Assembly: GCA_037956075.1 (NCBI GenBank)
Contig: CP138327.1
Span: forward strand, 248,001 to 312,000
Reading direction: 5' to 3'
From: Catillopecten margaritatus gill symbiont
GTDB lineage: Bacteria > Pseudomonadota > Gammaproteobacteria > PS1 > Pseudothioglobaceae
Length of the DNA stretch: 64,000 nucleotides
This document shows positions 36,341 to 36,575 of this stretch, in pieces; the first letter of the stretch is position 1; every line of letters starts with the position of its first letter. The position numbers and the translations under genes are program-made. The notes under the pieces are model-generated. The model did not search any database. It saw only the letters and a program-made list of their open reading frames with translations, and had not been told where the DNA came from.

Positions 36341-36368
36341 TTGACACCCTTGTTTTTTAAGTTATAAT
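36341..36368 (+). promoter_or_regulatory. Strong sigma70 promoter of the glnK-amtB leader
   Basis: Perfect -35 TTGACA (36341-36346) and perfect -10 TATAAT (36363-36368) separated by 16 bases. Transcription should start near 36375, about 200 bases before glnK, giving a long leader. No sigma54 GG-N10-GC element is seen, unlike many glnK promoters. Confidence 0.85.
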
Positions 36369-36380
36369 TATCGGCAGTTA

Positions 36381-36462
36381 TTTTCCAAAGGCGGGAAATC
36401 AACAACAAACATTGGCGTTTATTTAGACTTTTTTAAAAGAGGTTTAGGTAAGCGTTTTTTTT
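36381..36462 (+). promoter_or_regulatory. Putative ANTAR antitermination unit 1 (two A1-G4 hexaloops plus terminator)
   Basis: Hairpin P1 has a 6-bp stem TTTTCC/GGGAAA and hexaloop AAAGGC (36387-36392). Eight bases later, hairpin P2 has stem AAAC/GTTT and hexaloop ATTGGC (36411-36416). Both loops have A at position 1 and G at position 4, the known ANTAR recognition rule. The 3' arm of P2 lies inside the 5' arm of an intrinsic terminator (36416-36431 pairing with 36439-36454, then eight T at 36455-36462), so P2 and the terminator are mutually exclusive. Confidence 0.65.
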
Positions 36463-36467
36463 CGTCA

Positions 36468-36552
36468 GTTTCAAAGAGGGAACAGGGGAACGGTATAGAA
36501 GCCAGCCATCGAATTTGTGTATTTTTACACAAGTCGGTTGCTGGCTTTTTTT
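36468..36552 (+). promoter_or_regulatory. Putative ANTAR antitermination unit 2 (two hexaloops plus second terminator)
   Basis: P1 has stem GTTTC/GGAAC and hexaloop AAAGAG (36473-36478). Eight bases later a weak P2 has stem GGT/GCC and hexaloop ATAGAA (36495-36500). Both loops follow the A1-G4 rule. The 3' arm of P2 overlaps the 5' arm of a second terminator-like hairpin (GCCAGC 36501-36506 with GCTGGC 36540-36545, upper stem TTGTGTA/TACACAA) followed by seven T just before the glnK ribosome-binding site. The three-pair P2 stem is the weakest part. Confidence 0.55.
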
Positions 36553-36575
36553 GTTTATAAAAAGGAGAAAGTTAC

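Follow-up and report, generated by a model that had tools for sequence, protein, structure and literature searches.

Tandem ANTAR-type antitermination leaders predicted before the glnK-amt and nirB operons of a gill symbiont and its SUP05/Thioglobaceae relatives

The ~200-nt leader (206 nt folded) between the promoter and glnK in the window, the 64,000-nt stretch of DNA analysed here, consists of two consecutive ANTAR-type dual-hexaloop units (36376-36552), each overlapped by its own intrinsic terminator (Table 1). A second tandem leader of this type precedes nirB in the same genome and, as a single ANTAR protein is encoded there, the two operons probably form one nitrogen regulon. It is very probable that a NasT-like protein acts on both leaders by antitermination at two sites in series, coupling ammonium uptake (glnK-amt) with nitrate assimilation (nirB). 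RNA binding, antitermination and series (AND) behaviour are expected from work on EutV, NasR and NasT; dependence on the ANTAR protein and the 'tight off, graded on' control envisaged in the preliminary description of this DNA are likewise predictions.

The perfect TTGACA/TATAAT promoter reported in the preliminary description lies upstream of the leader, with a 16-bp spacer. The TATAAT box is kept in most relatives' leaders, the -35 box is not conserved, and the leader RNA probably starts near A36376. All four hexaloops named earlier have A at position 1 and G at position 4 and sit on stems of at least 3 bp, and P2 of each unit shares sequence with the 5′ arm of its terminator, as had been proposed; predicted structure and covariation agree that P2 and the terminator are mutually exclusive in both units. 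The 'identical 8-base linker' between hairpins was not confirmed: unit 1 has CAACAAC (7 nt, 36400-36406) and unit 2 AGGGGAAC (8 nt, 36484-36491). Both lengths lie within the about 5 to 12 nt expected of ANTAR targets (5-12 nt in E. faecalis eut ANTAR RNAs), and loop-to-loop spacing is alike (24 nt in unit 1, 22 nt in unit 2). Upstream of the promoter, a ligA-like gene (34440-36337) is split into two overlapping orfs of 551 and 81 aa in different frames; the corresponding parts are in one frame in three relatives, indicating a frameshift here or a sequencing error.

Table 1 Features of the glnK leader and adjacent genes in the window.
Feature	Position	Strand	Details
Sigma-70 promoter	36341..36368	+	TTGACA 36341-36346, 16-bp spacer, TATAAT 36363-36368
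Unit 1 P1	36377..36403	+	Hexaloop AAAGGC 36387-36392; extended stem GTT...AAC; folds alone and within leader
Unit 1 P2, predicted antiterminator hairpin	36407..36420	+	AAAC-ATTGGC-GTTT; loop ATTGGC 36411-36416
Unit 1 terminator T1	36414..36462	+	20-bp hairpin 36414-36456; T-run 36455-36462; exclusive with P2
Unit 2 P1	36468..36483	+	GTTTC-AAAGAG-GGAAC; loop AAAGAG 36473-36478
Unit 2 P2, predicted antiterminator hairpin	36492..36503	+	GGT-ATAGAA-GCC; loop ATAGAA 36495-36500
Unit 2 terminator T2	36497..36552	+	Hairpin 36497-36549; T-run 36546-36552; exclusive with P2
glnK, P-II protein	36576..36923	+	Pfam P-II E=1.7e-31; RBS AGGAG 36563-36567
amt, ammonium transporter, marine subtype	36933..38153	+	NCBIfam TIGR03644, 626 bits vs cut-off 514
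NasT-like protein, pseudo-receiver (Asn56 at phospho-Asp site) and C-terminal ANTAR domain	38250..38834	+	Pfam ANTAR E=1.7e-19

RNA folding, suggested earlier as a check, bears out this architecture. The glnK leader folds at z = -7.9 and unit 2 at -35.3 kcal/mol (MFE; z -5.8); in each unit the favoured predicted fold is P1 plus terminator, with P2 weak or unformed alone (that of unit 1 is absent from the MFE structure of 36376-36420), and the leader is thus predicted to be off by default. RNA polymerase would then stop at T1 or, failing that, at T2. The NasT-like protein, made just downstream of amt, would bind the A1/G4 hexaloops and stabilise P2, preventing formation of the overlapping terminator, and transcription of glnK-amt would require both units to be opened. 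The same protein would open the tandem leader in front of nirB and the nitrate/nitrite transporter gene, and the role of NasS, the usual partner of NasT, may have passed to the level of free NasT or to another protein, with GlnK the nearest candidate.

The leader before nirB was found with the unit-1 and unit-2 models, each of which matches this genome twice, once in the glnK leader and once in the nirB leader (G000:C1:459007-459168). Behind it come a NirB orf (TIGR02374, 755 bits), a nitrate/nitrite transporter of the NarK family and a fusion of PP2C and kinase, making NasT-like control of a nitrate-assimilation operon through its leader a candidate. The preliminary description had considered a doubled unit before a P-II-ammonium transporter operon unusual; the doubling is clear, and it is not peculiar to this operon. 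Both leaders are probably opened by the one nearby RNA-binding protein. The core model (R3) gives three units at E below 0.001 in this genome and nothing else better than 0.68, values that within the window follow by construction from its having been built partly from the window; P1 of unit 2 in the nirB leader is poorly recognisable. No match above noise was obtained with this model at a second P-II and AmtB-type operon (30705-32328), about 6 kb upstream of the glnK leader.

The nirB leader is also tandem in relatives and is conserved in several genera. In Pseudothioglobus-type genus g5, serC has one ANTAR unit and its terminator in front of it (L140, L280, L281), and the regulon may reach serine synthesis there. 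Three further arrangements were seen. In G007 (L142) glnK-amt and nirB lie next to each other as divergent operons, and the region that they share carries a leader for each. In G061 (L139:3000-3263) the nirB leader is intact and is followed by only about 88 codons of nirB-like sequence, then a nitrate-reductase-like orf. On the - strand of L145 (near 8400-9000), only a short glnK-like start separates a tandem leader from serB; it is apparently what remains of a glnK-amt that was deleted.

The ANTAR protein reported downstream of the leader is indeed encoded there (Table 1) and is the only one found in the genome. It matches solved ANTAR proteins in sequence and has the NasT-type combination of a receiver-like and a C-terminal ANTAR domain, with NasT proteins as its nearest relatives; those outside the family are encoded adjacent to NasS, NrtA or nirB-type genes. 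Counterparts of the EutV RNA-contact residues K143, K147 and Y164 are present, and the position aligned with the phospho-acceptor Asp54 of EutV is Asn56 in 40/40 orthologues. A terminator-like hairpin lies between amt and the ANTAR gene, and the ANTAR start codon comes 9 bases after the end of a TATAAT (38235-38240), which may make the ANTAR mRNA nearly leaderless.

No candidate for NasS was found in this genome with PF13379, a model that picks up NasS at E about 1e-70, and a NasS protein query, run as a search without a positive control, gave no match in 83 family genomes; PF13379 matches in some genus-g5 genomes were rejected as NasS, being weak and around the cut-off. In Paracoccus denitrificans NasS keeps NasT inactive, and NasT is released by nitrate or nitrite (PMC3795266, PMC5424462). 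With NasS missing, the off state here must come from some other signal or from the amount of the protein; NasT freed from NasS is described as the active form, which on its own would keep the switch permanently open and counts against the proposed mechanism. One version, compatible with antitermination in series and concerning only its input, is that the ANTAR protein is always active following loss of NasS and that the leaders couple expression to its amount, with no metabolite signal. The receiver without the usual phospho-acceptor and the dependence of the Paracoccus nitrate response on NasS are consistent with this, but in neither operon has either terminator been lost, a sign that the off state is in use, and such a protein seems possible rather than likely. 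A more speculative version, to which we give little credence, is that the sensor-less NasT reads the general nitrogen state as an RNA-level stand-in for sigma-54/NtrC control, perhaps via GlnK or the PP2C-kinase of the nirB operon, with the two serial units steepening the response in both operons. Sigma-54 was not found in this genome and is present in several genomes of the same genus.

Members of the SUP05/Thioglobaceae family are sulfur-oxidising marine bacteria, and many live as symbionts in deep-sea mussels or clams. Relatives' leaders retain the A1/G4 loop positions, the stems and both terminators, with covariation in P1 and the terminators; the lack of conservation named beforehand as grounds for giving up the ANTAR reading was not seen. 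In unit 1, A1 and G4 of both loops are invariant in 17 sequences, and P1, anchored by sequence only, has 90.4% of cells paired across 45 distinct leaders, compared with 69.8% when its arms are shuffled (maximum 76.7% in 1000 shuffles). Across 17 sequences the T1 helix is 98% paired, and both of its sides show changes; P1 and T1 together have 9 pairs with both-side changes, exceeding all 500 shuffles, and in the T2 region such changes affect 12/20 pairs. The P2 stems are conserved and do not covary, as expected for sequence with two roles. In unit 2, P2 is 98% paired in 21 sequences (covariation of the 3-bp stem not significant, 55/500 shuffles) and its loop has A1/G4 in nearly all leaders. The unit-1 model matches in 71/83 family genomes and the unit-2 model in 67/83, often twice, and the order leader-glnK-amt-ANTAR gene is found in most relatives retrieved.

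Unit 2 is the less regular of the two. In many relatives the loop of its P1 is five bases long, with A1 and G3; this departure from a hexaloop and the 3-bp P2 without significant covariation both speak against serial antitermination. Unit 1, whose P1 is long and whose loops are strict, might then be the only working ANTAR switch and unit 2 mainly a strong terminator, a decayed ANTAR site serving as constitutive brake or backstop, an idea with which the poorly recognisable P1 in unit 2 of the nirB leader would also agree. However, unit 2 of either operon shows strong conservation of its A..G loop and GGT/GCC stem, and the operon would be silenced if a strong terminator had nothing to oppose it; a unit 2 of this kind is improbable.

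Clustering of these elements by chance was assessed with a descriptor (two A1/G4 hexaloop hairpins plus an overlapping terminator), which matched exactly two places on the + strand of the 64 kb, units 1 and 2, and had no match on the - strand or in any of 40 shuffled sequences of 64 kb. The descriptor was fixed after the leader had been seen, making conservation across species the stronger evidence. Rfam at the gathering threshold returned only tRNAs in the window, and a permissive search gave only weak unrelated matches, all below cut-off, with no family reaching cut-off in the leader.

As core model R3 was partly built from the window, a class-wide search with the unit-1 model R1, trained only on unit 1 of the SUP05/Thioglobaceae family, provides the independent test. 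Among 274 genomes across the class, R1 matched only this one, two others of the family and two from outside it. Both outside matches lie directly between an upstream NasT-type ANTAR gene and a nitrate-assimilation gene (one nrtA-like, one nitrite-reductase-like) and appear to be single units. The identification of the leader as an ANTAR target, for which the preliminary description had proposed a search of this kind, is thereby strengthened, the family-trained model finding matches outside the family only beside NasT-type genes. A leader-peptide attenuator was rejected from three-frame translation of the leader. More generally, terminators acting without the ANTAR protein, whether by leader-peptide attenuation, as a small-molecule riboswitch or as an upstream-gene terminator plus a separate attenuator, could yield the z-scores found if strong, but are scarcely credible given that the leader reaches no Rfam cut-off, has no evident conserved peptide reading frame and varies by indels between relatives, while its conserved parts are the ANTAR loops and the unit-1 model has matches outside the family only beside NasT genes.

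Reduced genomes of clam symbionts bear on the link between leader and target. Four of these (G045, G046, G049 and G054) have glnK and the ANTAR gene, with amt gone or reduced to weak remnants of ≤71 residues. Their T2 hairpin energies are -4.7 to -13.1 kcal/mol in the glnK leader and -22.5 to -29.5 kcal/mol in the nirB leader, while in G051, which keeps amt, T2 of the glnK leader reaches -31.7 kcal/mol. Leader model scores drop in parallel with the glnK-leader T2 energy in genomes without amt, where T1 is less affected than T2. By these predicted energies, T2 of the glnK leader appears to have decayed where amt was lost, with the nirB leader and ANTAR gene kept. G047 is an exception, with a weak nirB T2 (-7.5) and a strong glnK T2 although amt is broken. 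Within the clam-symbiont genus the ANTAR gene is under strong purifying selection (dN/dS 0.055-0.125; 0.063 between two genomes without amt), glnK less so (0.10-0.28). These symbionts offer a natural experiment on the decay of a riboregulatory site after loss of its target gene.

Marine sulfur and nitrogen cycling owes much to SUP05 bacteria and to those of their relatives that live as symbionts of mussels and clams, and our literature search found no paper on nitrogen control by ANTAR antitermination in them. The arrangement proposed here would place ammonium uptake and nitrate assimilation under one RNA-binding protein, in a family in which some genomes, including this one, appear to be without sigma-54, and raises the question of how NasT is controlled without NasS.

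That P-II and ammonium-transporter genes are among the targets with an ANTAR RNA in front had been predicted by Ramesh et al. 2012 (PMC3369931), so that leaders of this kind are already known; that article also lists at least 13 attenuators in six units in Desulfotomaculum acetoxidans. Compared with it, the new elements are the doubling, seen throughout the family and in both operons, and the absence of the sensor. Like the EutV/eutP, NasR/nasF and AmiR/amiE RNAs (PMC3369931), the leaders have paired A1/G4 hexaloops, short spacing, a P2 overlapping the terminator and nitrogen-metabolism genes downstream. Unlike in those RNAs, two units in fixed order precede each of two operons, conserved across the family, and P1 of unit 2 often has a five-base loop. 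The receiver plus ANTAR architecture and the RNA-contact residues match those of EutV/EutW (PMC8934654), but EutV is phosphorylated on Asp54, the position occupied by Asn here. A further parallel is the NasS-NasT system of P. denitrificans (PMC3795266, PMC5424462), in which, too, a NasT-type receiver-like and ANTAR protein goes with an antitermination leader (predicted here) ahead of genes for nitrite reductase and a nitrate transporter. It differs in that here no NasS was found in the family, the nasT-like gene lies beside glnK-amt, the leaders are doubled and the proposed regulon includes an ammonium transporter.
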